A stretch of 64,000 nt of DNA, taken from the NCBI RefSeq assembly GCF_029962835.1, contig NC_080588.1, forward strand, positions 40,841,001-40,905,000, read 5' to 3'. This document shows, piece after piece, positions 2,448-54,204 of this stretch. This DNA comes from Magnolia sinica. Lineage: Eukaryota; Streptophyta; Magnoliopsida; Magnoliales; Magnoliaceae. Under the pieces are notes generated by a model. The model was not told the DNA's origin, did no database searches, and saw only the letters and a program-made list of their open reading frames with translations. Within the stretch, counting starts at the first letter, position 1; each line of letters opens with the position of its first letter. The translations under genes were made by a program, and so were the position numbers.

Positions 2448-2552
2448 CAAGGAAAGAAGGGAAGAAATACAAAAGATGGCCGTCACAATCTCAAAGAGGG
2501 CCATGAGAAATGAGAGAAAGAGAGAAATAGGAAGATGGTGAAGCTTCCACAC

Positions 2553-14200: not shown

Positions 14201-17200
14201 GCTCAGGAAATGAAGATATAAGCACTATGAATTTTTGGCAATTCTAAGCTAGTGATAAACCAGCTTACTATAGAATTCAAAATAAGGAAGCACGAGTCCT
14301 CCCGTATTATCGTTAAGTGCAACAATTGTTGTAGCAATTTCAGATGTTGAAATCAGGTATATACCGAGATCAGAGAATGCAAGGGCAGATGCCTTAGCTA
14401 GCTTGGCTGCAACTTTGGCTTGTCCTAATTGAAGCCCTCTTCAAGTAACAATCGAAGAAAGAAGGTTTTTGTCACCTGATGAAGATGTCGAAGTCTCTGA
14501 AGCATTGCCTGTGTCATGTTTAGAGATTTCAATTGATGATTGGCATCAACCTTTTGTGGATTATCTTAAATATGATATTTTTCCGGAGGATCTAGCGTCA
14601 AAGCTGTAAATTAAGCAAAGGGTGAAGAAATTTATTATGTGAAATGAAAAGCTTTACAAAAAGCCCTATAACGAAGTGTTGTTGAGATGCTTGGATATGA
14701 AAGAGGTGAATTGGATATTGCAAGAAACACATTCAGGGGAATGTGGGGCTCATCGGGCTGGTAGAAATTTGTTCTATCGAGTACATCGAATAGGGTATTA
14801 TTGGCCTACAATGTTCAAAGATGCGATTGATTATGCACAGTGGTGTCATGAATGTCAGATATATGGCGATGTCATACATTTTCCTCCTGAAGACTTGCAT
14901 CAGTTAGTGGCTTCTTGGCCCTTCGCAGCCTGGGGGCTTGATGTCATTGGTCCTATAAATCCATTGTCATCTAGAGGAAAATAGTATATTTTGGTAGCTA
15001 CAGATTATTTTTCAAAGTGGACTGAAGTTATCACACTAAGAAATGTCAAAGAGAAAGATGTTGTGAGTTTCATACGGCATGCAATAATATACCGCTATGG
15101 TGTTCCGAAGAAGATCATTGCTGATAATGAGACTCCATTTAAGACTAGAGGAATGGAGAAATTATGCTAAAAGTTTGATATCCAGCATTCATTCTTGACA
15201 CCCTGCTATCCACCGGCTAAAGGGTTGGCTGAAGTATTCAATAAGACGATTGTGAAGATATTGAAGAAAATAATTGTAGGAAATAAGCGTGATTGGGATG
15301 AGAAGTTGTGAGATGCCCTATGGGCCTATCGAACTACTCATCGTATTGTTACGAAAGTAGTGCCATATTCTTTGGTTTATGGAGTTGAAGTTGTTATCTC
15401 CATTGAAATGCAGGTTGCATAGCTCAGAATAACAGTACATTATTCAATTACTGATGATAAAAATGCCATGATCAGGTTGGCAGAATTGGATTTGCTAGAT
15501 GAAAAGAGATTAGCAGCCCAGCAGCGATTGCAATTATATCAAGAGAGAATCTCTGCCACTTTTGACAGAAAGGTCAAGCATAGCTCCTTCAAAAGAGGTG
15601 ATATGATATTGATGCTGAAAAGACTGATAGTGGTCACTCGTAAGACTGGGGTCAAGTTTGACCTTAAATGGAATGACCCATACATAATATTAGAAGTATA
15701 CTCCAATGGGGCTTATCGGGCGATAGATAAAGATGGGCAAGGCATAAGTATACCAGTCAATGCCCATTTCATAAAAATATATCATCCCTGAATGTATACG
15801 TAGTTTTGATTTAGAAGATTCGTGATGTAATTCTTCTCAATTAAAAGGGAACAGATAAAAGCATACAAAGGCAGAACTCTATATTTCTTTCTAACATTGT
15901 ATTTCTCTTTGAATACTAATGAAATACAGGCCTTCAAAGCATATCAAATCCAAGCAAGTCAATAAAAAGTGCCAATGATTGTTACCATATCGCCAAATGC
16001 AAATTGCCAATGATTATCGCCAAATCGTCAAACGCATATCGCCAAATGCAAATCTCCAATGTGGCAATGATTATCATTGAATCACCAAAGCTGTTATTAC
16101 TATCATTACCTTTCTAGTACATGGCCATTTAAATTTATCAAGATCAATAGCACTGCCAAGCTGATATATACAATCTTAACTATAAAATTTTGTTTCATAT
16201 CATCAGCAAATGTGGTATATTAATTTTGATTTATAATTTCAGCAAGGCAATTCATCATTTACAGGTGGTAGAATAAGCTTATAAAGTTAAGTACGAGAAT
16301 CATGACCACAAGTATATACGAGAATCGTGACAACAATGGCGACTTATCACATACGATGGCGAGAAAGATGCCGCTATGAAGCCAAATGCGCACAAGGCTT
16401 ATCATGATTGGCGATGGCGATACGAAAGAACTATATGGGTCGCAGTGTCATCTGTGGCCTTAAAAAGCTCAGAAAGAGCATCACGCGCACCCATGCAGAC
16501 AGTGACCTATGCCGTCTATACAACTTTAGGCAGCGTCATGTGGGCGGTCAGAGAGTGCCCCCTCGTGAATGGGTTTGACCTTGCTGACGAAGGAAAAATG
16601 AGTCTCTGAAGCAAGATGACTCCCCTCATCCCTGGTTTAAATTCAATAGTAATGCATGAAGGCAAGTCTTTGAAGCAAGATGACCCCTCATTGATGGACT
16701 GGCGGACTTGGATTTGGTACCTCATGGTAGCCTTGTGTGCCCCGTGAACTCTAAAAGTTATTGTGGCCAACCCTGTGCGTAAATCCGATCGAGTTCACTA
16801 CCCATGTAGATTCACTAGGCCCCTCTGATGGATAGCTGTTTGTGAACTCCCCAGTCGTAATAAGCCTCGTGAACTCTAGAGAGTTACAGTGGTCATTTGT
16901 GTAAGACCAACTCCAACTACTTAAGAGTTTAAACTGTGATTGCTCCAACTACTTATGAGCTTAAACTGTGTGTGCAACTAACTGGAAATGAAACTTAGTT
17001 TCGCCCATTTTAAAATACCACATAGATGATTCTATGCTAACAACTATAAATAGATTGTTACTTTGATTAGCATGTGTCTATCAAATATGCTTACGAGAAT
17101 TGCTCAAGCTTAGAAATGCTATAAATCCTAAATCAAAATATAATTCTAAAGATGCGTATGTTCATACATTTCATATAGAAGTGCGTTATCAAAAATAGAT

Positions 17201-20900: not shown

Positions 20901-21050
20901 ACTAGAGGACTTCTCCTTAGACTACATGTCTATATATCTAGACCTTGTCCCTCCATGGGAAAGAGGAATATGTTCCACATCATGATCGCCGAGTAGCGCA
21001 CTTACACCATTATGACCCATATGCATCATCTGCGTGAATGGATTTACATT

Positions 21051-21082
21051 CATTGCAAGAAAAAGGGGCAAAGGCTATGGCT
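21051..21082 (+). repeat. Left terminal inverted repeat of CACTA 1
   Basis: CATTGCAAGAAAAAGGGGCA followed by AAGGCTATGGC. The first five bases are CATTG instead of the canonical CACTA/CACTG, so this end has one to two changes relative to the right end (CACTA). Confidence 0.85.
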
Positions 21083-21144
21083 AAAAAATCGTAGCAAAAT
21101 CCCTTTTGCTATGGATATGATCCATAGCACGTCCGTCGCTATTA

Positions 21145-21425
21145 GTGGGGTAGCTAAAGGTATAGCTACGGATTATATCCGTAGCAATAGATACCAATCG
21201 CTACGGATTATATCCATAGCAATATATACCAATAGCTACAGATTATATCTGTAACAATAGATACCAATAGCTACGGGCTATATCCGTAGCAATAGATACC
21301 AATAGCTACGGACTATATCCGTAGCAATAGATACTAATCGCTATAGACTATATCTGTAGCAACAGATACCAATAGCTACGGACGAAAGCCGTAGCAATAA
21401 CTACGGATTATATTCGCAGCTATTT
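21145..21425. repeat. Subterminal palindrome array of CACTA 1, left
   Basis: About eight tandem copies of a ~35-bp unit whose core is an imperfect palindrome, GCTACGG then TTATAT then CCGTAGC, spaced by AATAGATACCAATA. In CACTA transposons such subterminal repeats bind the element's own TNPA-type protein; that role is inferred from the family. Not a CRISPR array: the units are contiguous variants without unique spacers. Confidence 0.85.
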
Positions 21426-21729
21426 TTAAAAAAATTGTAATAATACGACCAGTTTCCATTACAAGAACCTGTTGTGATTGATAACTCATCTAAGCTTAAT
21501 GCTGATAGAAATAGTACATAAAATGCAATCAGAAAAAAAATAAAACGATGCATTGATTACAAATAGTAATCAAATCATACAATGCATCCTACATTCACAT
21601 TTCTAAATAAACAACACTTCACTTTGCTCAACCTATCATAAGAATTACAACTAAGGCATGCCCTCATGTGTAAGAAACAAATACACTCCAACACAATAAA
21701 CACCCTCCATATGCATTAATAATGCTCAC

Positions 21730-21905
21730 ATTTTTACAGAATTTTCTTCCTTCAGACGATCAATTTCAGCAAATGCAGAAGATAGAGCTTCTTCTTTCCT
21801 TGAAACTGCAGATGTAACTTCTATGGACTTCGACACAAGATCACTTTCAAGTTTTAAAACCCTTCCCTTGAGAAAATGGATTTCATCCTCCACTGATTCT
21901 TTAGT
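21730..21905 (-). pseudogene. Captured host exon encoding a coiled coil
   Basis: The minus strand has about 58 codons with coiled-coil composition: ESVEDEIHFLKGRVLKLESD, then LVSKSIEVTSAVSRKEEALS, then SAFAEIDRLKEENSVKM. Heptad-like spacing of L, V and A with charged residues is clear. It resembles long plant coiled-coil proteins; a piece of the nuclear-pore anchor NUA/TPR or of a ROP-interactor (ICR) protein is possible, but I cannot decide. No ATG is needed because it looks like an internal exon. It lies near the left end of CACTA 1, next to the telomere-like array. Confidence 0.5.
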
Positions 21906-21986
21906 TTGTTAGCTTGTATAAAACAACATTTGTAGACACAATCAAATAAGCATGCCTTTGTACACATCTCAAATGGAAGAAAGACA

Positions 21987-22006
21987 AAAAAAAAAAAAAA
22001 AAAAAC
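21987..22006. repeat. Poly(A) tract
   Basis: About 20 consecutive A on the plus strand between the coiled-coil exon and the telomere-like array. Confidence 0.85.
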
Positions 22007-22109
22007 TTATATATGAAGAAATAAAAAATGTACCTACAAATCTTCTAAACTAAGGCAAAATCCAACATGAGTAATGTGTTCAAACCTAGGATGGACTTTT
22101 AAACTCAAA

Positions 22110-25100
22110 ACCTAGGTTTAGGTTAAGATTATAGGTTTAGGTTTATTTTTAGGTTTAGGTTAAGGTTATAGGTTTAGGTTATAGGTTATAAGTTATAGCT
22201 TTAGGGAATTGAGAATAGGTTAAGGTTTAGGTTTAGGAAATCGGGTTTAGGTTCGGGATCGGGTTTAGGTTTGGGTTTTCAAGTTTAGGTTTAGGTTTAG
22301 GTTAGGGAGTTGAGATTAGGATTAGGTGTAGGTTTAGGTTTAGGTTAGGGAGTTGAGATTAGGATTAGGTGTGGGTTTAGGTTTAGGTTAGGGAGTTAAG
22401 ATTAGGATTAGGTGTAGGTTTAGGTTTAGGTTAAGGAGTTGAGATTAGGATTAGGTGTAGGTTTAGGTTTAGGTTAGGGAGTTGAGATTAGGATTAGGTG
22501 TAGGTTTAGGTTTAGGGATTTGAGAATACATTTAGGTTTTAGGTTTAGGTTTAGGTTTTGAGGTTATAGGTTTAGGTTTAGGTTTTAGATTTAGGTTTAG
22601 GTTAAGTTTAGGTTATAGGTTAAAAGTTTATGTTATACGTTGTAGGTTATAGGTTATAGGTTAAGGTTTAGGTTATAGGTTTTGGTTTAGGTTTAGGTTA
22701 AGGTTTTGGTTTAGGTTATAGGTTTAGTTAAGGTTTATGTTTAGGTTATAGGTTATAGGTTATAGGTTAAAGCTTTATGGAATTAAGAAGGCTTAGGTTT
22801 AGGAAATTGGGTTCGGGTTTGAGATCGGGTATAGTTTGGGTTTTTGAGTTTAGGTTTAGGTTTAGGAGTTGAGATTAGGATTAGGTGTAGGTTTACGTTT
22901 AAGGATTGGAGAATACATTTAAGTTTTAGGTTTTAGGTTTAGGTTTCGGTTTTAGGTTTAGGTTAAGGTTATAAATTTAGGTTAGGTTTAGGTTTAGGTT
23001 ACAGGTTATAGTTTTAGGGAATTGAGAATAGGTTAAGGTTTAGGCTTAGGAAATCAGGTTCGGGTTCGGGATCGAGTTTAGGTATGGGTTTTCAAGTTTA
23101 GGTTTAGGTTAAGGAGTTGAGATTAGGATTAGGTGTAGGTTTAGGTTTAAGGATTTGAGAATACATTTAGGTTTTAGGTTTAGGTTAAGGTTATAGGTTT
23201 AGGTTAGGTTTAGGTGTAGGTTATAGGTTTTATGTTATAGGTTATAGCTTTAGGGAATTGAGAATAGGTTAAGGTTTAGGTTTAGGAAATCAGGTTCAGG
23301 GTCGGGATCAGGTTTAGGTTTGGGTTTTCAAGTTTAGGTGTAGGTTTAAGTTAGGGAGTTGAGATTAGGATTAGGTGTAGGTTTAGGTTTTGGGATTTGA
23401 GAATACATTTAGGTTTTATGTTTAGGTTTAGGTTTTAGGTTATAGGTTTAGGTTTAGGTTTTAGGTTTAGGTTAAGATTAGGTTATCGGTTATAAGTTTA
23501 GGTTATAGGTTATAGGTTATAGGTTAAGGTTTATGTTATAGGTTTTGGTTTAGGTTAAGGTTATAAGTTTAGGTTTAGGTTTAGGTTAGGTTTAGGTTAT
23601 AAGTTTAGGTTAAGGTTAAGGTTTAGGTTATAGGTTATAGGTTATAGGTTAAAGCTTCAGGGAATTGAGAATAGGTTAAGGTTTAGGTTTAGGAAATTGG
23701 GCTCGGGTTTGAGATCGGGTTTAGTTTGGGTTTTCAAGTTTAGATTTAGGTTAAGGAGTTGAGAATAGGATTAGGTGTTGGTTTAGGTTTAAGGATTTGA
23801 GAATACATTTAGGTTTTAGGTTTAGGTTTAGGTTTTAGGTTTAGGTTAAGGTTATAGGTTTAGGTTAGGTTTAGGTGTAAGTTATAGGTTATAGGTTATA
23901 GGTTATAGGGAATTGAGAATTGGTTAAGGTTTAGGTTTAGGAAATCAGGTTCGGGTTCGGGATCGGGTTTAGGTTTGGGTTTTGAAGTTTAGGTTTAGGT
24001 TTAGGTTAGGGAGTTGAGATTAGGATTAGGTGTAGGTTTAGGTTTAGGGATTTGAGAATACATTTAGCTTTTAGGTTTAGGTTTAGGTTTTAGGTTATAG
24101 GTTTAGGTTTAGGTTTTAGGTTTAGGTTAAGGTTATGTTATCGATTATAAGTTTAGGTTATAGGTTAAGGTTTAAGTTATAGGTTTTGGTTTTGGTTTGG
24201 GTTTTAGGTTTAGGTTTAGGTTTAGGTTAGGTTTAGGTTATAGGTTTAGGTTTAGGTTTAGGTCATAGGTTATATTTTTAGGGAATTGAGAATAGGTTTA
24301 GGTTTAAGTTTAGGAAATCGGGTTCGGGTTCGAGATCGGGTTTAGGTTTTGGTTTTCAAGTTTAGGTTTAGGTTAAGTAGTTGAGATTAGTATTAGGTGT
24401 AGGTTTAGGTTTAAGGATTTGATAATACATTTAGGTTTTAGGTTTAGGTTTAGGTTTTATGTTTTATGTTTAGGTTAAGGTTATAGATTTAGGTTAGGTT
24501 TAGGTGTAGGTTATAGGTCATAGGTTATAGGTTATAGTTTTAGGGAATTGAGAATAGCTTAAGGTTTAGGTTTAGGAAATCAAGTTCGGGTTCGGGATCG
24601 GGTATAGGTTTGGGTTTTCAAGTTTAGGTTTAAGTTTAGGTTAGGGAGTTGAGATTATGATTAGGTGTAGGTTTAGGTTTAGGGATTTGAGAATACATTT
24701 AGGTTTTAGGTTTAGGTTTAGGTTTTAGGTTATATGTTTAGGTTTATGTTTTAGGTTTAGGTTAAGGTTAGGTTATCGGTTATAAGTATAAGTTATAGGT
24801 TAAGGTTTAGGTTATAGGTTTTGGTTTAGGTTAAGGTTATAGGTTTAGGTTTAGTTTAAGGTTTAGGTTTAGGTTTAGGTTTATGTTAGGTTTAGGTTTA
24901 GGTTTAGGTTATAGATTATAGGTTATAGGTTATAGTTTTATGGAATTGTGAATAGGTTAAGGTTTAGGTTTGGGAAATTGGGTTCGAGTTCAGGATCGGG
25001 TTTAGGTTTGGGTTTTCAAGTTTAGGTTTAGGTTAAGTAGTTGAGATCAGGATTAGGTGTAGGTTTAGGTTTAAGGATTTGAGAATACATTTATGTTTTA

Positions 25101-28100
25101 GGTTTAGGTTATGGTTATTGGTTTGGGTTAGGTTTAGGTGTAGGCAATAGGTTATATGTTATAGGTTATATGTTATAGCTTTAGGGAATTGAGAATAGGT
25201 TAAGCTTCAAGTTTAGGAAATCAGGTTCAGGTTCGGGATCGGGTTTAGGTTTGGGTTTTCAAGTTTAGGTTTAGGTTTAGGTTAGGGAGTTGTGATTAGG
25301 ATTAGGTGTAAGTTTAGGTTTAGGGATTTGAGAATATATTTAAGTTTTAGGTTTAGGTTTAGGATTTAGGTTATAGGTTAACGTTATAGCTTTTGGTTTA
25401 GGTTTAGGTTTTAGGTTTAGGTTAAGGTTATAGCTTTAGGTTTGGTTTAGGTGTAGGTTATAGGTTATAGCTTTAGGGAATTGAGAATAGGTTAAGGTTT
25501 AGGTTTAGGAAATCAGGTTCAGGTTCGGGATTGGGTTTTGGTTTGGGTTTTCAAGTTTGGGTTTAGGTTTAGGTTAGGGAGTTGAGATTAACATTAGATG
25601 TAGGTTTAGGTTTAGGGATTTGAGAATAAATTTAGGTTTTAGGTTTAGGTTAGGGAGTTGAGATTAGAATTAGGTGTAGGTTTAGGTTTAAGGATGTGAG
25701 TATAAATTTAGGTTTTAGGTCTAGTTTAGGTTAAGGTTATAGGTTATAGGTTTAGGTTTAGGTTTTAGGTTTAGGTTAAGGTTAGGTTATCGGTTATAAG
25801 TTTAGGTTATAGGTTATAGGTTATAGGTTAAGGTTTAGGTTATAGGTTTTGGTTTAGGTTAAGGTTATAGGTTTAGGTTTATGTTTAGGTTAGGTTTAGG
25901 TTATAGGTATAGGTTAAGGTTAAGGTTTAGGTTATAGGTTATAGGTTAACACTTTAGGGAATTGATAATAGGTTAAGGTTTAGGTTTAGCAAATTGGTTT
26001 CGGGTTTGAGATCGGGTTTGGTTTGGGTTTTCAAGTTTGGATTTAGTTTAAGGAGTTGAGATTAGGATTAGGTTTAGGTTTAGGTTTAAGGATTTGAGAA
26101 TACATTTTGGTTTTAGGTTTAGGTTTAGGTTAAGGTTATAGGTTTAGGTTAGGTTTAGGTGTAGGTTATAGGTTATAGGTTATAGGTTATAGCTTTAGGG
26201 AATTGAGAGTAGGTTAAGGTTTAGGTTTAGGAAATCAGGTTCGGGTTCGGGATCGGGTTTAGGTTTGGGTTTTCAAGTTTAGGTTTAGGTTAAGGTTAGG
26301 GAGTTGAGATTAGGATTAGGTGTAGGTTTTGGTTTAGGGATTTGAGAATACTTTTAGGTTTTAGGTTTAGGTTTAGGTTTTAGGTTATAGTTTTAGGTTT
26401 AGGTTTTATGTTTAGGTTAAGGTTAGGTTATCGGTTATAAGTTTAGGTTATCAGTTATAAGTTTAGGTTATAGGTTTTGGTTTAGGTTAAGGTTATAGTT
26501 TTAGTTTTAGGTTTCAGTTAGGTTTAGGTTTAGGTTATAGGTTATAGGTTATATGGTATAGTTTTAGGGAATTGAGAATAGGTTAAGGTTTAAATTTAGG
26601 AAATCGGGTTCGGGATCTGGTTTAGGTTTGGGTTTTCAAGTTTAGGTTTAGGTTAAGTAGTTGAGATTAGGATTAGGTGTAAGTTTAGGTTTATGGATTT
26701 GAGAATACATTTAGGTTTTAGGTTTAGGTTTAGGTTTTAAGTTTAGGTTAAGGTTATAGGTTTAGGTTAGGTTTAAGTGTAGGTTATAGGTTATAGGTTA
26801 TAGGTTATAGCTTTAGGGAATTGAGAATAGGTTAAGTTTTAGGTTTAGGAAATCAGGTTCGGGTTAAGGATCGGGTTTAGGTTTGGGTTTTCAAGTTTAG
26901 GTTTAGGTTTAGGTTAGGGAGTTGAGATTAGGATTAGGTGTAGGTTTAGGTTTAGGGATTTGAGAATACATTTAGGTTATAGGTTTAGGTTTAGGTTTTA
27001 GGTTATAGGTTTAGGTTTAGGTTTTAGGTTTAGGTTAAGGTTAGGTTATCGGTTATAAGTTTAGGTTACAGGTTAAGGTTTAGGTTATAAGTTTTGGTTT
27101 TGGTTAAGGTTATAGGTTTAGGTTTAGGTTAAGGTTTAGGTTTAGGTTTAGGTTAGGTTTAGGTTATAGGTTTAGGTTAGGTTTAGGTTATAGGTTATAG
27201 GTTATAGGTTATAGTTTTAGGGAATTGAGAATAGGTTAAGGTTTAGGTTTAGGAAATCGGGTTCGGTTCAGGATCGGGTTTAGGTTTGGGTTTTCAAGTT
27301 TAGGTTTAAGTTAATTAGTTGCGATTAGGATTAGGTGTAGGTTTAGGTTTAAGGATTTAAGAATACATTTAAGTTTAGGTTTTACATTTAGGTTAAGGTT
27401 ATAGGTTTAAGTTAGGTTTAGGTGTAAGTTATAGGTTATAGGTTATAGGTTATAGCTTTAGGGAATTGAGAATAGGTTAAGGTTTAGGTTTAGGAAATCA
27501 AGTTCGGGTTCGGGATCAGGTTTAGGTTTGGGTTTTCAAGTTTAGGTTTAGGTTTAGGTTAGGGAGTTGAGATTAGGATTAGGTGTTGGTTTAGGTTTAA
27601 GGATTTGAAAATACATTTAGGTTTTAGGTTTAGGTTTAGGTTTAGGTTTTAGATTCTAGGTTTAGGTTTAGGTTTTTGGTTTAGGTTAAGGTTTGGTTAT
27701 GGATTATAAGTTTAGGTTATAGGTTAAGGTTTAGGTTATAGGTTTTGGTTTAGGTTAAGGTTGTAGGTTTAGGTTGTGGTTGTGGTTTAGGTTATGTTTA
27801 GGTTGTAGGTTTAGGTTAGGTTTAGGTTTAGGTTATAGGTTATAGGTTATAGGTTATAGTTTTAGGGAATTGAGAATAGGTTTAGGTTTAGGTTTTGGAA
27901 ATCAGTTTCGGGTACGGGATCGGGTTTTGGTTTGGGTTTTCAAGTTTTGGTTTAAGTTAAGTAGTTGAGATTAGGATTAGGTGTAGGTTTAGGTTTAAGG
28001 ATTTGAGAATACATTTAGGTTTTAGGTTTAGGTTTAGGTTTTAGGTTTAGGTTAGGTTTAGGTGTAGGTTATTGGTTATAGGTTATAACTTTAGGGAATT

Positions 28101-28845
28101 GAGAGTAGGTTAAGGTTTAAGTTTAGGAAATCAGGTTCTGGTTCGGGATCGGGTTTAGGTTTGGGTTTTCAAGTTTAGGTTTAGGTTTAGGTTAGGGAGT
28201 TGAGATTAGGATTAGGTGTAGGTTTTGGTTTAGGGATTTAAGAATACATTTAGGTTTTTGGTTTAGGTTTAGGTTTTAGGTTCTAGGTTAAGATTATAGG
28301 TTTTGGTTTAGGTTTATGTTTAGGTTTTAGGTTTACCTTAAGGTTATAGGTTTAGGTTCGGTTTAAGTTTAAGTTATAGGTTATAGGTTATAACTTTAGG
28401 GAATTGAGAATAGGTTAAGGTTTAGGTTTAAGAAATCGGGTTTGGGTTTTCAAGTTTAGGTTTAGGTTAAGTAGTTGAGATTAGGATTAGGTGTAGGTTT
28501 AGGTTTAGGGATTTGAGAATACAATTAGATTTTAGGTTTAGGTTTGGGTTTTAGGTTATAGGTTAAGGTTATAGGTTTTGGTTTAGGTTTAGGTTTAGGT
28601 TAAGGTTATAGGTTTAGGTTATAGGTTTAGGTTATGTTTAGGTTTAGGTTATTGGCTATACATTATAGGTTAAGGTTTAGGTTTAGGTTATAGGTTATAG
28701 GTTTAGGTTACAGGTTTAAGTTTAGGTTTATGTTAGGTTATAGGTTATAGGTTATAGGTTATAGGTTAAAGTTTAGGTTATAGGTTAAGGTTTAGGTTTA
28801 GGTTATAGGTTTAGGGTGTGGTTTAGGTTAAGGGTGTGGTCCCCG
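22110..28845 (+). repeat. Telomere-like TTTAGG array with ~640-bp higher-order repeat
   Basis: A 6.7-kb block made almost wholly of TTTAGG, TTAGGT and TTATAGG hexamers and heptamers, with the G-rich strand on plus. Landmark phrases recur: 'GGAATTGAGAATAGG' at about 22203, 23253, 23648, 23907, 24272, 24543, 24935, 25183, 25475, 25948, 26198, 26567, 26816, 27220, 27460, 27866, 28094 and 28398. Spacings alternate near 250 and 390 bp, so two subunits form a repeat of about 640 bp, present roughly ten times. Canonical TTTAGGG is rare. The array is inside CACTA 1, so it is not a chromosome end. No coding potential. Confidence 0.9.
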
Positions 28846-28849
28846 CAAA

Positions 28850-29225
28850 TACAGATATAAACACAGCTTGCTCCAATTGGCCAGGCCCTTCCAATGCTGT
28901 CCACAGGAAATGGACAACTTCATCATGGTCATAACAGTGGTACCCACCTTCTAGGGACCCCCGGTCAACATTCGGATAGCTCCGATGCACATCTGGATCT
29001 GCTTCATTAATTTCGAGATAATATATAAACATGGGCCTGTCCAAATGGCCAGGCCACCCATATTGTTATCTATAGGAAATAGACAACTTCATCATGGTCA
29101 TAGCAGCAGTTCCCACCTTTCAGGGACCCCCTCTCAACATCCGGATAGCTTCGACGCACATCCGAATCTACTTCATCAATTTCGAGATATAATATAAACA
29201 TGGGCCTATCCAAATAGCCAGGCCA
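28850..29225. repeat. Tandem ~169-bp repeat with a conserved minus-strand peptide
   Basis: Two full copies and the start of a third (GGCCAGGCC at about 28879, 29047 and 29216; 'ACTTCATCATGGTCATA' at 28918 and 29087). On the minus strand both copies encode similar peptides: LEINEADPDVHRSYPNVDRG in one, LEIDEVDSDVRRSYPDVERG in the other. Whether this is a gene remnant or chance is undecided. It borders the telomere-like array within CACTA 1. Confidence 0.75.
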
Positions 29226-29229
29226 CTTC

Positions 29230-32125
29230 ATCAATGAATCATATAGTATGAAGGAAAGAAGACTCACCAATTTAGCAAGTAAGGAGAGAAAGTGTGAGTG
29301 CTTGGAATGTCATCCTTTCTTTGAATAATAGATGCATATTCCACAATGCAATCTGAGAATGAGTAAGTTTTTTAGTTTCTCCGACAATGCATATGGGCAC
29401 AGATTTACAAATAAATAAAATAATAAATAAAATTTAAATCCGCCTTCTAAATTATACTTACCGATAGTTGGAATTGTTGTAATAATGTCCCCCAGCTTGA
29501 GATTGAGTCTGTTTTCTATTACAATTAGCGAAATCAATACGAACTTACAACAATAGGTACTAGGTCTTTGGTCCAGGGGTGATCAACAATAAAAGGTACC
29601 TTTTACCATGAACTAAAACCATATATTATCCATACCTTAATAGGACTCACTACAAGGGTAATCTTTCAATGATGGCCCACTGCTTCTGATAATCACTATA
29701 GGGGTAAGAAAATTACAAATAGTAAGACTCATGAGATGACATATGTACAAATAGTGACAAGACTAGCTGGTAATGACAGGAGGCTAAGACATCAAATTAT
29801 TTATGAAGAACAGGAAAAAAATAGAGATAAAATAAATAGTTAAAAACTTTACCATTTCAATATTGAACCTTGTAGTGGCAACATTAAACAACTAAGATTG
29901 GAAAAGAATATGAACTTTCAACTAAAGGATGAATATGTACCAATTTGAAGCTCATATCCTACACCAACTTGCCAAAAGGAAAATACAAGAGGACATGCCC
30001 AACTGGAAATGGAGCACAGATCTGTTATGTTTGTAATAATTCTGAGAGACTGGTTTGCATAAACATCTTCCTAATCCCTGAAGAGATTTCAAAAGAAAAA
30101 TTAGTTCTGTTGGCACAAGAAATAATTGGTTTTAAAGATTGATAAACAAATATAGTGGGTTTTCCTTTAATGAAATAACCTCCATTCATCCGATAACTAT
30201 TAAGGAAAATGAATTCATTTCCAATCATACTTTGCGTGGATGCTCACAATTAGTACTCCCATGCATTGATATTAGAATCAAGAACCCTCATGATAAGAGG
30301 AATTATAGCATCCAAATGCATCAGGTCATGCTCAGCATTCTCATGTGCTTAGTTCATACAAGTCAGGCCAATAGAGAGGAGATCTGGATCCCAAAATGTT
30401 CATCTAATAGGCTCCAGCATAGACAAAGGACACCGTGAATTTCTTAGATTCCAATACATACTGTTCCCATTACAATACATAGCGAATCAATCTGGAAATT
30501 CAAAAGGGCCACAAAACAGTATCATCAAATCCTTTGCTAAATTATAAAACATGATATAGCTTAAAAAAACTTCATAAATGCCCATACCAACACAAGTACC
30601 ATTCAAAACAATGCAATAGTGAAACCAAACAGAAAAAATGGTGGAAAATATTCACAATCTGACTCAACTCACACAAAAATGGAAAAGTTCCTTAGTTGTC
30701 TTGGGGTCTGTTGTTTGAATGCTAGCATAGCACACCAATCCATAAGCATGCACAAAGCCACTATAAACATGGCATGTGTACCACATTACACTTTGTAGTT
30801 CCTAAAATTGAGCATAGTTGTGAAAGCTCTTAAATTGAGCCCCTTATTCACAAGAGCATGGTAAGAAGGAAAACAATATTAAACACTTTGATACTCAGAT
30901 GAATGATATGTAAGCACTGGGTAATTATTTAGAAATTGCATATGTGGTATAAGAGTAATTCAAATCATGACCATTTAATAGAATAGAAGAAATTGCTGAA
31001 GCTCACTGTTTAGATAGCAGAGTTTTGAAACATGGAAAATCCAAGCTTGCCCATCAGTTGGATGCTTCAGATTCTTCATTAGACAGTCCACATGCACAGA
31101 AAAGATGCAGGCTACACAGATATCATCTGATTTAAGAAATTTATTTGATTCCTATTATAAGTAAATTAGTGGAGCTAGCTCCATTCCATTCAAAATGGCA
31201 GAACTAGGCCCCAAATTCTAGCTAGGATTGCTTCAGTCCTGCTCGAAATGCATGAGAATACAACTAAAGATCAGCCATCAATATGAATTAAATTGGTGTC
31301 ATCCTACTTTAGCAATTTATGTGTTGATTTGATTAACAAATATCTGCACATTTAAAAAACAATGCTAATAAACTAAAACCTGACAATTGAATTTAAATCT
31401 AATTTGAGAAACTGGGCGGTGTAATAGAAATTTCCAATGATACGTTGCAAGATAGAAATCATTGGAGATATTAGAGACTGAAAATGATAGAATTAGTTTA
31501 GTGACTCTTCATCTTAAATGCCATGATCTGAATGCCACTAAATCAGTTTAGTTGCCCTTTGATCTTCTATTGCCCCATTTGTTGACACCTGGTTAGCTAG
31601 GTGCTTGGTACGAGTCAAAATGCGGTGGATTTACTAAGTCGACTCAGGTAACTCACAAATCTGCCTGATCTCTTTGTTTTTCCCATATTGGATGGTCAAG
31701 TTTTAATGCTAAGTGACTGAGCCACCATTGGTGAGTGGTGAACCAGGTGCGTGATTTTTTGAAGCCACAACATATGAGTCACCAACAGTTGGATAGTGCG
31801 AATCCAGCTTAGTGGCCAGAAGATCAGAACAGGTAATAAAAGTATAAAAATGAGCCATGTTAAAGTAAAAGCAAGAGTTCAACAAGGAAGAGGCAGACTC
31901 AGGACTAGAGCTATAACAGAACATATTGAGATTTAGCACATGTGAAATACAAATAGAAACCAATACGAATAATAGAATCCAGAAAAAGAAAGCGACAGAA
32001 AATCAGAAAAGTGTACCCTAAGAATACAACATCATTACCATTACTTTGAGCAGAATATCAATGCCAACAAAATACAATTGGGTATTGAAAAAAAAATTCA
32101 CGGTAGGACAATCAAATAAGCTCAC
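29230..32125. other. CACTA 1 interior without recognised content
   Basis: AT-rich sequence resembling plant introns or intergenic DNA. I see short frames only and none with a family signature. It may contain introns of captured genes, since a ROP exon lies immediately to the right. Confidence 0.5.
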
Positions 32126-32235
32126 CTTCCTTACTATGTTCTTAAAACTAGGCCTGCTAATGAGAGAGAGAGCAAGGAGAGAGACATCAACACCTCTGTA
32201 GCTGAGAGGTCTCAGCCTGTTATAGTCTTCTTGAC
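32126..32235 (-). pseudogene. Captured exon of a ROP/RAC small GTPase
   Basis: On the minus strand, after an acceptor (...CCATATAG), the exon reads [15 protein letters not shown] then [20 protein letters not shown] then RK, followed by a donor (GTGAGC). This is the segment after the G3 motif ([18 protein letters not shown]) of plant Rho-type GTPases, which act as membrane switches in polar growth and exocytosis. Intact ROPs read ADVFLLAFSLISKASYENV here, so several substitutions are present. Splice sites on both sides agree with the intron positions I recall for ROP genes, which points to capture of genomic DNA rather than a retrocopy. No other ROP exon was found in the window. Confidence 0.8.
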
Positions 32236-32429
32236 CTATATGGAGTTTCAATTTCTTAAAAATCAGTAATTACAATGCACAAAATAGGAAGATGGTTTTG
32301 TTTTAATTTCTTTCCCAAAACCATCAAATGCTAAAAATAATTCAAATTACTAAGATTTAGCACAACTAATTCCAACAATGGATAAAACCCAAAATAGGAT
32401 ATGGATTTGGTTGAATATTACAATTCAAG

Positions 32430-32515
32430 ATACTAGTTGCTTCCTTTCATTCTTCCTCTTTCCTTTTTCAATCGATGGCATATCTACATCTGTTTCTGGT
32501 ACATTCACCTCCTTT
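32430..32515 (-). pseudogene. Possible captured exon, unknown origin
   Basis: Minus-strand stretch encoding KEVNVPETDVDMPSIEKGKR then KNERKQL, preceded by a possible acceptor and followed by GTATCT. It is charged and lacks low-complexity bias, unlike the surrounding AT-rich DNA. I do not recognise it; it could be chance. Confidence 0.3.
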
Positions 32516-34140
32516 AAATAATTCAACATATTCAATTCAAATTTCAAACATAGAAAAAAATAGAATAGAAAAAATCTCAAAAGGTCAAAAATAAAATTCA
32601 CCAAGAACAGAATATTAAACAAAAGAGAAAAGAAAGCAGTTAACTTTCCACATTTCCAACAATAGGTTCTTTTAAAACACACAAAAAAAAAAGCAGAGAC
32701 ATTTAAACCAAGAAATTCAAAATAAAAATCAAAATTTCCAGAAGAGATTATAGAAATGTACTAGCATAACTAGATCATGAGTAGTAGTTTTCCTATATCT
32801 TCCACAAAATGCAAATCTTACCTCTCAATGACATGAACCCAAAAAAATTATTCCGGCAGTGACGAACTCATCCTTAAATTGACCCCTCATTTAAAATAAA
32901 AAAATATATATAAATTTCTACAGGATACACCCGACATTGAGAAATGTATGGATTTATAGCACTCCTGAGCTTATATTTTTTACTTAAAAAGAAACAAGCC
33001 ATAAAAGATAATAAGCAATCTTTTTCTCATTTTTAATCAGGTACATGTTGGGGACTCTATAACGCTTTCTTCTGTTCCTAGCTTCCATCTTGAAGCATAA
33101 AGGCAGCATGGAAGCAGTTTAGAGGCTAGGGAGGCTTTCAATAGCAATACTTACCATATAAATTGCTTGAACAAATTATAACTATGATATTATTAGCATG
33201 GGCTTAGAATACTTTTCAATGTGGGAATACTTCTTGAAATTGATAAACCATGACAAACATTTAAGAGACATATTTGATTCACTTCAAGCAACTCTAGTTT
33301 AGATTATAAAGAATCAGCTCTTGAATTCTGGATTTGGACATGGCCCACTCCAGGGCCATAAATTAGATCTCTTAGAGACTCTACTTTGAGATGGGTGAGG
33401 AAGGGCAATAGTGGATTGATAGTGTAGCTATTGGAGTTAACTGTAGAATTGAGTATTAAATATACCTTGAAAATGAGTTTTGATCTCATTTAAATATATC
33501 AAATCTTGTGTTTTGATATGCAAAACAGGCCTGAATATAGTTGAAAATGAGTTCATAGGCTTCCTATACCTTTAAATGAAGAAAATACCTTAACAACTAT
33601 ACAACTATCCGTGACTAATTGTAAGAAATAAGATTCTGTCATAGAAAAGACATAAATCACAAAACCTGATTTGGATTAAGAGGAATTCTTCATGATCCCA
33701 TCCCCAATTCAGGAAACCGATTCAGGGTTAGAAATGGAAAAAATACCCAACAACTGAAATTCGTTGTTGAAAAGAATCCCACCCAAATCCAAAAGGTTTT
33801 TTTAACAAACACAATCTGGTTTACATCATGACGCCTGAAAGAATCCTACAAAAGTCCAATTCCCAATTCAGGTCGAGGATAGAAATGAGGGGGGGAAATC
33901 AACACAGAGCCAATTCATCACTTCTCACAAGAAATCCAGTTAGGGTTACAATGACAAATGCCATGTTAATTAATCACCAAAAAGAATTCATCATGATTCT
34001 CAAAATTCATTATTCTAACCCAAATCCCCAATTCAAAACTCAAATCCTGCAAATGCCAATTCAAGAAAATCCCATTTCCAATCAAACGTGACAAATCCAA
34101 ATCAGTAATTCCTTATCGATGCAATAACAGAAACCGCAGA
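32516..34140. other. CACTA 1 interior, AT-rich, no recognised content
   Basis: AT-rich with several 'aatccc(c)aattcagg' phrases around 33690-33880 that look like diverged short repeats. I see no coding frame with a known signature. Confidence 0.5.
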
Positions 34141-34144
34141 ATAG

Positions 34145-34402
34145 TCAGCTCGAGTACTTGACATTTTCTTCGATGAAATAGAGAGGGACGACGACACCGC
34201 TGCTCTCATTGACGAGCAACGTGCACCATGTCGGCATCCCTTTGACATTGTAGTCCTCGATCTCAGCACATTCCTGGAGGAACGATCGGATATTGTCACG
34301 AAATAGGCCCGAGTAGTTGACTGGGCAGCTAGGGTCTGCGAATGCATGGAATGCATAGGCCTTAACCTGCCTTTTTGCTTCTTATATGCATCAAAGATGG
34401 TA
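34145..34402 (-). pseudogene. Captured fragment of a PHD-finger protein gene (At1g33420-like)
   Basis: The minus strand encodes STIFDAYKKQKGRL and then, one base out of frame, KAYAFHAFADPSCPVNYSGL, FRDNIRSFLQECAEIEDYNV, KGMPTWCTLLVNESSGVVVP and LYFIEENVKYSS before a stop. This resembles the region ahead of the PHD finger in plant proteins of the At1g33420/MMD1 family, nuclear chromatin readers active in meiosis and anthers (recalled from memory). A one-base deletion after KGRL breaks the frame, and the PHD zinc residues themselves are absent. The fragment sits about 0.4 kb inside the right end of CACTA 1. The conserved pattern makes a captured host exon likely; the exact family member is uncertain. 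Confidence 0.62.
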
Positions 34403-34424
34403 GATATGAGATAGAGCGTGGAGG

Positions 34425-34615
34425 TGCAGCTAGGGTGTGGGGACCTTCTTCCAATTCAAAGAGAGAGAGATAAGGGTGGGGGTGCGGCTAGGGCGTGGGG
34501 ACCTTCTTCCAATTCAGAGAGAGAGAGAGAGAGAGAGAGGTGGAGGTGCGGCTAGGGCGGGGGGGTGAGGTGGAGGCATGAGAGGGATGTTTGAGAGAGA
34601 GGGAATGAAAAAAAA
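34425..34615. repeat. GA-rich tandem repeat
   Basis: Two to three copies of a ~70-bp unit containing 'GCTAGGGCGTGGGGACC', 'CTTCTTCCAATTCA' and a (GA)n run (for example 34519-34539). It lies just inside the right end of CACTA 1. Confidence 0.8.
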
Positions 34616-34664
34616 ATCCCACGTCAATGAAATTGAAAGGACCCGCGCAGCTTTTTTCATCAAA

Positions 34665-34740
34665 TTTAGCTACGGATATACGAATTTTAGCTATGGATTA
34701 AACTCGTAGCTATATAGCTACAGCTTTAAACCATAGCTAA
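34665..34740. repeat. Subterminal palindromes of CACTA 1, right
   Basis: Three to four diverged copies of TAGCTACGGAT / TAGCTATGGATT and their complements, matching the left subterminal array and the left end of CACTA 2. These are presumed TNPA-type binding sites. Confidence 0.75.
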
Positions 34741-34755
34741 ATTCCACTATATGCT

Positions 34756-34783
34756 GTATCCTTTGCCCAATTTTTTGGTAGTG
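34756..34783 (-). repeat. Right terminal inverted repeat of CACTA 1
   Basis: The plus strand ends CCTTTGCCCAATTTTTTGGT then AGTG; its reverse complement begins CACTACCAAAAAATTGGGCA. It is followed by ATT (34784-34786), the copy of the trinucleotide at 21048-21050. Confidence 0.9.
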
Positions 34784-36010
34784 ATTGTGTGTGGTCATTT
34801 GGTTGATATGATAGAGGGATGGAGTTTCTCCCCTTGTGCACATCAAGTGCTTGAAGCTGGTGCATGATCTGTATGCATGACTCATGCATTGGCATTGCAT
34901 TTCATGATAATACTACCCTTGCTTTATTAGGGCCTTGCCTCCATAGGGACATTCGTGGATGGATGTGTGTGTGGACATCAAAAATTTTACTTGAGCATAT
35001 AGGGCACATAGGATGCCCATGGGTGAAATTTTCAAAACTTCCATGGTACCAAGGATCTGCCCCAATGCCGTGACTAAGTGAAAACTATGAGCGCACGAGG
35101 GCCTTATACCGTTAGGTTGTGACTCCCACTATCGTGTAGTTAGTTGGGTAGGGGTGTGGTCTTACCCATCTGGTGTAAGAAGGCATTGCTAGGCTGAGTC
35201 TGACCAGCTCGTAAATGGGTCCGCTGCTGTCAAGCCTTGTTGGTGATTGGCTGTCCATAGGCAGGTAGTGAGGTCTCTTACGCTCATTTGACTGTGTAGG
35301 TCTGGAGAGTGGTAGTCATCTAGCAGTGTACTTGACCTCGGTGATTTCCTTATGATGGAAATGTGTTTGATATGTGGATTAGACATGAGGACTGACATTA
35401 TTTTGCATCACATTCGCATCGGCTATATAAGCCCCTTTATGTATCGCCTTGGTATGGCGCCCAGTACTCATTGCATTGTATTCATGACAAGCCTCGGTAA
35501 GGCTAGTGATATTGTTATTGATCATGTTTCCCTTCCTATATCTCCTATTATTCTTTTGTACACCATTGTCACACACTTTCATCACCCTTTAAGCTTCTAT
35601 AAGCTTATGCACGATTGATGCGTGCAGGAGATCCTAGGTCAGAATCATAGTAGTAGAGCTTGGATTAGAGTTGAGCCGAGGACCCCCCTCCCCTCACCCC
35701 CCCAAGTGTTGTAGACCTTCTTCCTTCTTCTTTTGATATCAGATGTATTTCATTTCTGCTATGTACTTGTAAAAGTTCAAATTTAAAGTGGATTTTGTGA
35801 TGTGTCCCTTTGTTATTTTCAAGATTTACTTGCCGTGATCTTGGATATGCTTGCTTTGGAATAAATATACGGTGATGAAAATCCTCCTTGTAGGATCCCA
35901 GGATCAGAACCTGCCTCGGGAGTCGAGAATGGGATACTATGGAGGCTGTTACAGCCAGAATTGGCCATCGGGTTCCTTGTGAGTCCAGTTACCAAGTCTG
36001 GGGTGTGACA

Positions 36011-36015: not shown

Positions 36016-37430
36016 TATGGCTTGCACCAGAATATATCACCTTCTCTCCAACAAAGGGTACTGGACCTGATGGAGACAAGAAGTGAATGTTCGCCAAATG
36101 AAATGGAATCATCATCAATGACTGCCACGTCATCAGAATAACTAGCGAAAGGGAATTAATAGAAATCAATAGAATCATTGCTCCCTATTTTTCTGGTGAC
36201 CCAACCATTCGACTTCTTGATCATCTCTCTCAATTGATAATGATGGAAAGCCTGTTTGGACCCTGAGGAAGATGGATGATTCTTTCTTCTCGAAGAGAAT
36301 GCCGACAAGCGATGCATGATCGTGAACTGGAAGTTGTTGGGTTAAAGATGTAAATTTTGAAGGGTAGAAGTGATAAAAGCAGAAGAGAATTCAACAGAGT
36401 TTCAGAACAGGGGTTTTGGCACTAAGTGTAGGCGAGTTGCACGAGTGACTTATGCGGATGAATTGCACGGAAATGGAATTCAAGTTGGAGAAAAATTTTC
36501 AAAGTGAAGAAATGAGTAGAGGATTGATATTTATATATGCTCTAGGACTTGGCCAAGGTCATATGTGACCACAGAAAGGGGCCACGAAACTTGATTCAAT
36601 GATAAAGGATTTTGATCCTTCAAATTGACTTAATAAGAAGTCAAATCTCGAATCAAGGGGGCATCTGTTGGAACATTAAAATTCAATAGAGAAAAGAAAA
36701 GAAGAATGTTTAAAAATAAGAAGAACAGAAAAAGGACCGAGTTGTGCAGGTCACGAGTTGCATGAGTCACTGAGTTGCACGAGTCCACGTAACTTGCCGA
36801 AGTTACGCCGGGGTGCGATACCCTTCGCAGGATATGTTGAGTCAGTGATGCGAAGTGGGGTCCACGGCACGGGATTCGAGGGCTTACATGTGTGGAAGCC
36901 TATAAATACCCCCTACCCCCCTCATTTGCAGGATCAGATGTTCGGAAGACCAATGCCTCTGACAGGTGTTGGAGACGGAGAGAAGGAGAGGGAGTGCAGA
37001 AGGGCCGAGCGTGCCACTCCATACGAGTTGTGCTAGCCCACGCAACTCATGAAGGAGCCACGGGTACTCTTTAAAGCAGCATTATGTTGAATTTTCTTAA
37101 GTCTTCGGGCCGTTTCAGGTGTTTCAAAGGGATCCGGGCACTCCTTTATCATGTCGATGAGGGACAAAGTGCATGGAGAGCCCGCATAACTCATCTTCCA
37201 TGGAAATGTGACTGAAATGAGCTAGAATGCTACCGAAATTTATATTTGAGCCTATTCAATACTTGCACTTTTTTATTTTGTAGAAATTCTATCTCGGAGT
37301 CAGAGGATCAAAATGATGTAATGAACTCAAAATGAACAAATTCAATGATTATTCTCTTAGTTCTTTCTTTTTGTTATTATTAAGTGAGATAATTCCCCAA
37401 ATCAAATGCTTTTCATTTCTGGCCGAAACA
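36016..37430 (+). mobile_element. Element C, 3' end with polypurine tract and 3' LTR
   Basis: Continues the noncoding 3' region of element C after the solo LTR. A polypurine tract (AAGGGGGCATC, 36655-36665) precedes the LTR, which begins TGTTGGAAC at 36666 and ends ...GGCCGAAACA at 37430 (765 bp). A TATA box (TATAAATA, 36901-36908) lies about 235 bases into the LTR. The motif GAGTTGCACGAGTCA and variants recur upstream of the TATA box (about 36740-36790) and elsewhere between 36428 and 37195. To the right begins a 1.3-kb repeat, so C was inserted into that repeat; the flank is GGATG. Confidence 0.8.
36666..37430 (+). repeat. 3' LTR of element C (765 bp)
   Basis: Start fixed by the adjacent polypurine tract. 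The end is inferred from the CA dinucleotide at the exact point where homology to the downstream tandem repeat (GGATGTTATGCAT) begins. The partner LTR is not in the window, so age cannot be read from LTR divergence. Confidence 0.72.
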
Positions 37431-37568
37431 GGATGTTATGCATGAAGGTATGATTTTCACATGGTACATGATTTGCATGGTAATCCACATAACAGAAAAG
37501 TTACGTAAAACGTATAATTGATTAGGGGAGAATGCATAACGTATAAAAGATTTATTGTACACCCGATA

Positions 37569-37601
<33 letters not shown>

Positions 37602-40064
37602 TAACATTAGGATTATGTCTACTTATATCATCTCAAGCCAAACCAATTATGTGATTCACCACACGATAATGAGGGATACTAAAAAATTCTTGAAAATAGA
37701 AAATCATGTAAATGGTTCACAAAATAGCAGTTAAAGAAGATGATCCATATACAAATGAAAAGGTTGAATAATGGGAGGGTTGAAATTTTCCAGGTTAAGA
37801 GCAACAAATTAGGAAGTAGTGGAGACAACAACAAATGTTAGAGATCCTTATGTCATCAAAGGGTTATAATTTAGTTGTTTGGATGGTACATGACAATAGT
37901 AAGTGATGTTATGGGTGTAATAATGGATGCATTTTATGAGGCATGTACACATAAATTTGTGATGGGAGTAATACCTTAGTCTAATCATTGGTATGAGAGT
38001 GTAAATGTGTATTAAATATGGCCATTGTTAAGTGTTCATTCAATCATTCCTAATAAAGAGTCTTGAAAATCTAAATGTCTTTTATTGTAAACATAGGTCA
38101 AAAGGACAATCTTTAGGTCTATTCTTGTTAGAGGTTTTAAGGCAACTTGAATTAGTCCAACATGGACATAATTATATTTCCCTGAATTTTATAAGAGTTC
38201 TTTATGAGTTAAAAGTGATATGTCATCCTCTTTAGAGACTATTGGCTTTGTTTGCTCAACAGTCTTGATGATATAATCCAATTCTGAATTGTCAAAAGTT
38301 CCATCTGTACAAATATCCAGCAATAGAACTGTTTGAATTTGCAAATCTTGGATACACTGCTCAATCTCAGCATAGTTTATGGTTTCTTGATTATTTATGG
38401 ACATCCTATCCATAATAGGTGCAATATTTGATTCTGAAACAAAAGTTGTATCAGAAAGGTTTTCTTTTCTAGAGAACCATTTGTTCACTATGCTTTTCTA
38501 ATTCATAGTCGATTTCTTTGAAATATATTTTCCATAAAGATCTATTGTCACTATTAATTTTCTATTGAAGTAGATTTTCTATAATACATCCTAATGTATT
38601 TCATGTATGAACAAATTATTGATTTTCTACAGTACATCCTAATGTATATCATGTATAAACAAATTATTTTGTTAGCCTAAATAAAGTAATTTTAAAGGGG
38701 TTTTTGATACGCATGATTCATGAGCATATATTTTCTGAAAAGGGATGTTATGCATCAAGGTATGATTTCCACAGGGTACATGCTTTGCATGGTAATCCAT
38801 ATACAAAAAGTTATGCAAAACGTATGATTGATTAGGGGAGAATGCATAACGTATAAAAGATTTATTGTACACCTGATATATTTATTATTATTATTATTAT
38901 TATTTAACATTAGGATTGTGTCTACTTAGATCATCTCAAGCCAAACCTATTATGTGATTCACCACACCATTATGAGGGGTAATAAAAAATTCTTGAAGAT
39001 AGAAAATCATGTAAATGGTCCGCAAAATAGCGGTTAAAGAAGATGATCCATATACAAATGAAAAGGTCGAATGATGGGAGGGTTGGAATTTTCCAAGTTA
39101 TGAGTAAAAAAATTAGTTAGTAGTGGAGGCACCAACAAATGTTAAAGATCCTCATGTCATCAAAGGGTTGAATTTATTTGTTTGGATGGTGCATGACATC
39201 AGTAAGTGATGCTATGGAGGTAATAATGGATGCATTTTATGAGGTGTGCACACATAAATTTGTGATGTGAGTAATACCTTAGTCTAATCATTGGTATGAG
39301 AGTGAAAATGTGTATTAGATAAGGCCATTGTTAAGTGCTCATTCTATCATCCCTAATAAAGAGTGTTATAAATATAAATGTCTTTTATTATAAACAGAGG
39401 TTAAAACGACAGGCTTCAGGTTTTTTCTTATTAGAGGTTTATGACAACTTAGATTAGTCCAACATGGACATAATTATATTTTCCTGAATTTTATAGGAGT
39501 TCTTTATGAGTTAAAAGTGATATGTCATCCTCTTTAGAGACTATTGGCTTTTTTTACTCAACAATCTTGATGATATAATTCAATTCCGAATTATCAAAAG
39601 TTCAATCTCTATATAAATCCCGCAATAGAACTATTTGAATTTGCCAATCTTGGATACGCTGCTCGATCTCATCATAGTTTATGGTTTCTTGATTATTTAT
39701 GAACATAGTATCATGATAGGTGCAATATTTGATTTTAAAACAAACATTGTATCAGAAAGGTTTTCTATTGTAGAGAACCATTTGGTCACTTGGCTTTTCT
39801 AATTCATAGCCTATTTCTTTGAAGTATATTTTCTATAAAGATCCATTGTCACTATTAATTTTCAATTGAAGTAGATTTTCCACAATACATCCTAATGTAT
39901 TTCATGTATGAACAAATTATTAATTTTCTACTGTACATCCTAATGTATTTCATGTATGAAAAAATTATTCCGTAGCTTAAATAAAGTAATTTTAAAGGGG
40001 TTTGCGATACACATGATTCATGAGCATATATTTTCTGAGAAGGGATGTTATGCATGAAGGTATG
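37431..40064. repeat. Tandem 1.3-kb repeat (two copies plus 22 bp)
   Basis: Copy 1 is 37431-38742, copy 2 is 38743-40042, and a third begins at 40043 and is cut by the LTR of element D at 40065. Each copy starts GGATGTTATGCAT, has an (ATT)n run about 140 bp in (37568-37600; 38878-38905) and ends near 'CATGATTCATGAGCATATA'. Copies differ by scattered substitutions and small indels. The unit may be the terminal repeat or body of an unrecognised element, or an unequal-crossover duplication. A 99-codon minus-strand frame in copy 1 (38488-38189, MNKWFSRKENLSD...) is only partly kept in copy 2. Confidence 0.85.
38189..38488 (-). other. Coding-like stretch in the 1.3-kb repeat, unknown
   Basis: Minus-strand frame of 99 residues (MNKWFSRKENLSDTTFVSES..., then IEQCIQDLQIQTVLLLDICT...). 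Composition is protein-like, acidic and not repetitive. I do not recognise the family; a remnant of a reverse-transcribing element is conceivable. The homologous stretch of copy 2 (about 39490-39790) aligns but is diverged. Confidence 0.3.
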
Positions 40065-54188: not shown

Positions 54189-54204
54189 CACTATCGGAAA
54201 ACTA

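Follow-up and report, generated by a model that had tools for sequence, protein, structure and literature searches.

A hierarchical tandem array of TTTAGG-like units in a putative CACTA-type transposon of Magnolia sinica

A stretch of 64,000 nucleotides from Magnolia sinica (RefSeq assembly GCF_029962835.1, contig NC_080588.1, positions 40,841,001 to 40,905,000 of the forward strand; hereafter the window, to which all positions refer) was analyzed for a telomere-like array of TTTAGG units and for the CACTA-type DNA transposon in which this array appears to lie (Table 1). Nested repeats of 6 bp, ~40 bp, ~245/400 bp and 647 bp make up the array. The locus is read, with moderate confidence, as a non-autonomous, gene-fragment-carrying CACTA element whose cargo, a hierarchical minisatellite, grew from a short seed and was then amplified in a burst.

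The array was located using Tandem Repeats Finder (TRF), which returned a single array at 22113-28833 with a period of 6, ~1,060 units and 69% matches; an earlier reading of the letters alone (the sequence-only reading) had placed a TTTAGG-type array at 22110-28845, and the two agree. TTTAGG occurs 362 times within the array and 10 times in the rest of the window (+ strand), while CCTAAA is absent from the array; all units therefore have the same orientation. Among the 1,163 G-ended units of the array the commonest include TTTAGG (274), TTATAGG (92), TTAAGG (59), ATTAGG (42) and TTTTAGG (37). The sequence TTTAGGTTTAGG is present in 117 copies within the array and in none, on either strand, in the remaining window. 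Base counts are G 2,099, C 156, A 1,597 and T 2,870, with a GC skew of 0.80-0.87 across six 1-kb bins (22001-28000). The longest open reading frame (ORF) wholly inside the array is at most 49 amino acids, and the array is therefore very unlikely to be coding. No other TTTAGG array was present in the TRF listing for the window. Viral contigs were scanned with a 22-base landmark and gave no match, as expected for plant DNA.

Monomers were defined by the landmark GGGTTTTCAAGTTTAGG (landmark C). Three of its 23 matches (24198, 26731 and 27700) were discarded as spurious, leaving 20 monomers with successive spacings of 565, 248, 236, 406, 249, 373, 262, 398, 243 and 292 bp for the first ten and 480, 242, 363, 255, 403, 242, 404, 229 and 281 bp for the last nine. 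Over 23322-28163 spacings of 229-262 bp alternate with spacings of 363-406 bp, much as the sequence-only reading had described (~250 and ~390 bp), the exceptions being 292 and 480 bp at 25253-26025. Two monomer types, X and Y, were distinguished. Between the landmark and the core that follows it, an additional six-base unit is seen in 10/10 X and 0/10 Y monomers, and one further alignment column holds G in 10/10 X and A in 10/10 Y. The types alternate at 17 of 19 steps, which was equalled by 180 of 200,000 label shuffles. The spacing is 229-262 bp after Y (9/9) and 281-565 bp after X (10/10).

A dimer consensus was built from six of the nine X-to-X intervals, namely those of 600-680 bp; the remaining three measure 1049, 292 and 722 bp. 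The six intact X+Y dimers (618-655 bp) yield a consensus of 647 bp and are 90.3-93.9% identical in pairs. As in higher-order-repeat satellites, the multimers are more alike than their constituent monomers. Core divergence is 0.096 between X and Y, 0.063 among X and 0.088 among Y, the Y class being only slightly tighter than the X-Y comparison. When 20-mers shared at lags of 560-720 bp were counted, 947 were found, whereas 200 shuffles of its own G-ended units gave 37 on average and never more than 153; lags of 620-680 bp were the richest in shared 20-mers among lags of 60-3000 bp. The sequence-only reading had proposed a ~640-bp higher-order period and had called for a tandem-repeat search; once periods of up to 2000 were allowed, TRF returned a period of 645 (3.2 copies, 86% matches) at 26352-28400, and the proposed period is borne out by this result together with the landmark spacings, the lagged 20-mers and the six dimers.

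The two-monomer structure and its period are weakened on some counts. The X and Y labels were set by hand and eye from the monomer identity matrix, and average-linkage clustering of the monomer cores did not recover the two types, splitting off outliers instead. Gap-free autocorrelation gave no lag near 640 among its top 40, which is attributed to the smearing of that measure by insertions and deletions; its best long lags were 1263-1264 (~2 x 632, close to two dimers). In favour of the structure, monomers grouped using spacing only were more alike within groups (0.870) than between them (0.848), and 35 of 5,000 permutations were as high.

A third repeat level was found within the monomers. 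The 15-base core AGGGANTTGAGANTA is present about three times per monomer, at offsets from the landmark of about -70, +25 or +31, and +63 or +69 in most of the 20 monomers. Allowing up to two mismatches, the array holds 62 copies, whereas 200 unit shuffles averaged 1.1 and never exceeded 6. Marker phrases E, G and H are mutually related, and pattern E is over-permissive, also matching the G and H sites. Near the left edge a sub-repeat has undergone local expansion (Table 1). The right edge, judged by eye, grades into single-copy sequence, with GGGTGTGGT occurring twice at the junction. A 169-bp tandem duplication (85-86%) lies directly to the right of the array, at 28895-29226.

Divergence within the array was determined using 9 X and 8 Y cores, monomers 0, 1 and 19 being omitted. 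No rise of divergence with distance was observed among the X cores (mean 0.063; Spearman -0.15, p=0.39) or the Y cores (mean 0.088; Spearman -0.21, p=0.29). Because divergence is flat with distance, a single amplification followed by independent mutation fits better than steady local exchange. Substitutions in the dimer copies were scored against the consensus on the G-rich strand. G>A was counted at 44 of 1,190, G>T at 26 of 1,190 and A>G at 7 of 843, and the G>A excess is consistent with methylated C having been deaminated on the opposite strand. A>T was also in excess (28 of 843 vs 10 of 1,519 for T>A); deamination offers no explanation for this, which speaks against so simple a history.

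The sequence-only reading had allowed for a telomere origin with decay. On that account a TTTAGGG tract, derived from a healed break, a fusion or a telomerase-made insertion, would have lost one G per unit and later been rearranged. The unit is indeed one base off TTTAGGG and its G-strand orientation is uniform, and hexamers of this kind have telomeric associations elsewhere. In passages of PMC2206039 (TTTAGG)n arrays are placed at all chromosome termini of pea, so that plant hexamer arrays can be terminal; a figure legend in PMC10521516 gives TTTAGG and TTAGGG together as ~2-5% in a Chenopodium interstitial telomeric array; and in the green alga Chloropicon TTTAGG is given as the telomere unit in the part of PMC12301720 consulted. 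The present array is not at any end within the 64-kb window. TTTAGGG occurs in it 26 times, once at the right edge and in the other 25 cases at the AGGGA[AT]TT landmark core. The tandem TTTAGGG that marks an Arabidopsis-type interstitial telomeric repeat is absent from it (0 copies of TTTAGGGTTTAGGG), as is the telobox (TAGGGTTT or AAACCCTA) on either strand. TTATAGG, TTAAGG and ATCGGG are among the words built into the unit, and the copies are only ~6-10% apart on average, which seems less than would be expected had hundreds of units each lost a base independently. Telomere decay is thus not supported, and we consider it highly improbable as the origin of the array. As mean copy divergence is this low, the hexamer probably was the unit already before the 647-bp repeat amplified. 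A telomeric fragment may have been the source of the very first hexamers.

The ends of the transposon were searched for with CA[CT]T[AG] permitted, left ends before the array being paired with right ends after it and a 3-bp duplication being demanded. Of 19,118 pairs, 343 that flank the array had a matching duplication, and the best of these was 21051/34783. CACTA termini are described in PMC4938662 as inverted repeats of the form 5'-CACTA...TAGTG-3'; here the right end is CACTAC and the left CATTG, with 18 of 24 bases matched. The flanks carry the duplication ATT/ATT, of the 3-bp length stated for CACTA elements in PMC8978399, and in a common-bean CACTA family the target-site duplication is AT-rich (PMC4938662). 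A 5-nt duplication is given for the set in PMC8903248; five flanking bases would not match at 21051/34783. Subterminal direct and inverted repeats, which CACTA elements are said to carry (PMC8978399), are present inside both ends (Table 1). Degenerate GCTACGG-type sites number 44 in the window, with 16 in 21051-21500, 4 in 34600-34783, 6 beside 54189 and 18 elsewhere; those near the left end make up the 35-bp array there, and none lies inside the TTTAGG array. Position 54189 is a second left end (CACTATCGGAAAACTAGGCAAAGGCTACGG) that resembles the same element family and is inserted in a repeat (53702-54188, also at 45425-45898). Its boundary is independently supported because the repeat shared with 45802-45898 stops one base before it; no right end for this element was found in the window. 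From the ends, the duplication and the subterminal motifs at both ends, the placing of the array within a CACTA-type DNA transposon, as the sequence-only reading had it, appears supported.

Several points weigh against this assignment. The left end, CATTG, is neither CACTA nor CACTG. When the duplication was not demanded, 21 of the 19,118 end pairs scored at least 18, and a score of 18 was reached in 6 of 300 simulated windows (Markov model, 500-base blocks), so that ends and duplication are only modestly significant alone. The degenerate subterminal motif was devised after both ends had been viewed, and the value obtained with it for the terminal 184 bp on the right (4 sites vs 0.05 expected, P ~3e-7) is to be read with this in mind; the exact 8-base left-end motif has one site in the same 184 bp (P 0.006).

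Other end pairs were considered and rejected. A strict CACT[AG] search listed four pairs, none of them good: 14153/39125 and 10014/29756 enclose the array (13 of 16 bases matched) and lack a duplication, while the one pair with a duplication does not enclose the array. All of the eight highest-scoring pairs listed without the duplication demand lack one; seven link the TGAGGCCCA-type minisatellites of 9.2-9.5 kb with those of 62.6-63.2 kb. The candidate for a short element at 29648-29877 (CACTACAAGG...CCTTGTAGTG) was dropped by eye, its three flanking bases being different. An empty site was sought by comparing the joined 3-kb element flanks with the rest of the window, and no match across the junction was obtained.

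Within the element, Pfam identified no transposase in the 20 distinct ORFs scanned, of 66 listed, including none of the Tnp2 type found in autonomous CACTA members only. The element is apparently non-autonomous, and a transposase does not define non-autonomous members; that this negative covers 20 of 66 ORFs counts on the other side. The minus-strand ORF with similarity to plant ROP/RAC GTPases (Table 1) matched Pfam Ras with E=5.9e-5 (23.1 bits vs a cut-off of 21.6) and the ARAC2 chain 2wbl_C with E=1.2e-11, and would represent a captured host exon. Because this host coding fragment lies between CACTA ends, the element appears Pack-type in structure. Pfam rows for Thymopoietin, MFMR and Hanta_Gn-H were below their curated cut-offs and were taken as chance. 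The ORF at 34145-34381 (-) may be a fragment of a plant PHD-finger protein, unconfirmed by Pfam, which returned nothing, or by PDB matches, which were at chance level (best E 0.34).

A function of the array for the element was also considered. The G-rich repeats might serve as transposase-binding repeats, as a promoter or terminator, or as an R-loop-forming region, and the extreme strand asymmetry (2,099 G vs 156 C) could be taken in that sense. Against it stand the lack of GCTACGG-type sites across the 6.7 kb, of any match there to a four-tract G3+N1-7 quadruplex pattern and of internal ORFs above 49 amino acids, as well as the lack of such an array in the TRF listing beside the second family end at 54189. 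Such a role is extremely unlikely.

Under the preferred reading, replication slippage would have lengthened a short TTTAGG-type seed, first to units of ~40 bp and later to units of ~245/400 bp. A single burst of unequal exchange or rolling-circle-type synthesis would then have multiplied the 647-bp X+Y pair, whose copies would have mutated independently since; the G-to-A excess would fit methylated, silenced DNA. The array would have neither a telomere function nor a transposition function of its own, and would be movable only as passenger DNA, given transposase in trans from an autonomous CACTA element.

Alternatively, the array could have been a satellite or minisatellite at another genomic location before it was picked up by the CACTA element. 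There is a precedent in a 16.5-kb Chenopodium quinoa element with a 5.55-kb array, which passages of PMC8978399 read mainly as capture, and the host gene fragment indicates that the present element seems to have taken up other DNA. The array edges, on the other hand, look frayed rather than cut (the 43-bp expansion at the left, the duplicated GGGTGTGGT at the right), and the window holds no second TTTAGG array, neither point being strong. Capture is accordingly possible, if rather unlikely. Growth in situ and capture of a ready-made satellite are inseparable at one locus, which tells against the preferred reading; the leaning to growth in situ comes from the frayed edges and from the 647-bp consensus, for which no significant match was obtained in the rest of the window (best E 0.41). 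It is improbable that the CACTA family has acted as a portable source, by which the 647-bp unit, born in a transposon, would have been carried to many loci and would now form interstitial TTTAGG signals or satellites.

Satellite arrays within CACTA elements are already published, and the present locus adds an unusual unit, not a new class. The closest parallel is the CACTA-like element of C. quinoa (scaffold 3389), whose array consists of 171-bp monomers and was found in several CACTA elements (PMC8978399, as are the quinoa data that follow). The two elements are alike in size (16.5 vs 13.7 kb) and in having an internal array near one end (5.55 vs 6.7 kb), and CACTA elements with gene fragments are likewise described in that study. 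They differ in that the 171-bp monomers are not telomere-looking, whereas a telomere-like hexamer and a 647-bp higher-order repeat are present here, and in that a Transposase_21 domain is reported there, whereas the 20 ORFs scanned here contained no transposase. The pea arrays (PMC2206039) share the TTTAGG hexamer and span whole 454 reads; the passages on these arrays connect them with neither a transposon nor a higher-order unit. With Pack-CACTA elements, as defined in the consulted part of PMC8903248, the present element shares CACTA-type ends that enclose part of a host gene and, as far as its ORFs were scanned, the lack of a transposase; a tandem array is not in that definition, and the present element is known from one locus. 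A Chenopodium satellite born from the CACTA tnp2 gene is, in the passages of PMC7320549, likewise a tandem array closely linked with a CACTA element; it differs in that its ~40-bp monomer derives from the transposase gene. Among the matches listed, the titles and abstract openings of open-licence papers name no TTTAGG array in a CACTA element.

The locus offers a readable record of possible satellite growth in a mobile element, in which a 6-bp unit would have given rise to a ~40-bp core and this in turn to a unit of two monomers and 647 bp. If copies exist elsewhere, they would allow a direct test of whether transposons spread satellite seeds. Caution is also indicated in that TTTAGG-type signals on plant chromosomes are not necessarily telomere-derived.

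Table 1. Positions in the window of the putative transposon, its tandem array and associated features.
Feature	Position	Strand	Remarks
CACTA-type DNA transposon, apparently non-autonomous	21051..34783	.	13,733 bp; ATT target-site duplications 21048-21050 and 34784-34786
Left terminal inverted repeat	21051..21074	+	CATTGCAAGAAAAAGGGGCAAAGG
Left subterminal array	21162..21399	+	35-bp units with near-palindrome GCTACGGAYTATATCCGTAGC, 6.8 copies
Hierarchical tandem array of TTTAGG-like units	22113..28833	+	6 bp; 38-43-bp core spacing; ~245-/~400-bp monomers; 647-bp dimer
Local expansion near left array edge	22286..22500	+	Five GAGTTGAGATTAGGATTAGG sub-repeats, 43-bp spacing
Three intact X+Y dimers	23247..25177	+	655, 635 and 641 bp
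Three intact X+Y dimers	26192..28087	+	618, 645 and 633 bp
ORF with plant ROP/RAC GTPase fragment	32018..32269	-	38 residues; Pfam Ras and ARAC2 chain 2wbl_C
Right subterminal motifs	34669..34737	.	4 degenerate GCTACGG-type sites, one an exact GCTACGGA
Right terminal inverted repeat	34760..34783	-	Inward reading CACTACCAAAAAATTGGGCAAAGG

Further features were observed in the window. Minisatellites with the TGAGGCCCA phrase or its reverse complement lie at 9244-9470, 48194-48521, 51345-51780 and 62585-63208, in 20-, 21- and 34/35-bp units. One repeat is present in two copies of opposite orientation, at 52004-53456 and 60477-61986 (pieces 79-89% alike), and the right flank of the transposon (~34.86-35.35 kb) and the segment at 10.28-10.58 kb are 67-69% like it. 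A tandem duplication in direct orientation, ~1.3 kb in period, occupies 37425-40064, its pieces being 87-95% identical. A 394-amino-acid ORF at 1398-2582 (-) matched Transposase_32, 'putative plant transposon protein' (E=4.7e-14). At 14643-14984 (+) lies an integrase zinc-binding fragment that looks retroelement-like (E=6.7e-9). The ORF at 60138-60359 (-) gave a weak match to the exocyst Sec3 coiled coil (E=1.5e-4; 22.1 bits, under the cut-off of 27.1) and is a possible gene fragment. A U2 spliceosomal RNA-like sequence, either a gene or a pseudogene, was detected over the full model length at 59974-60152 (-), scoring 53.3 bits (gathering score 46).

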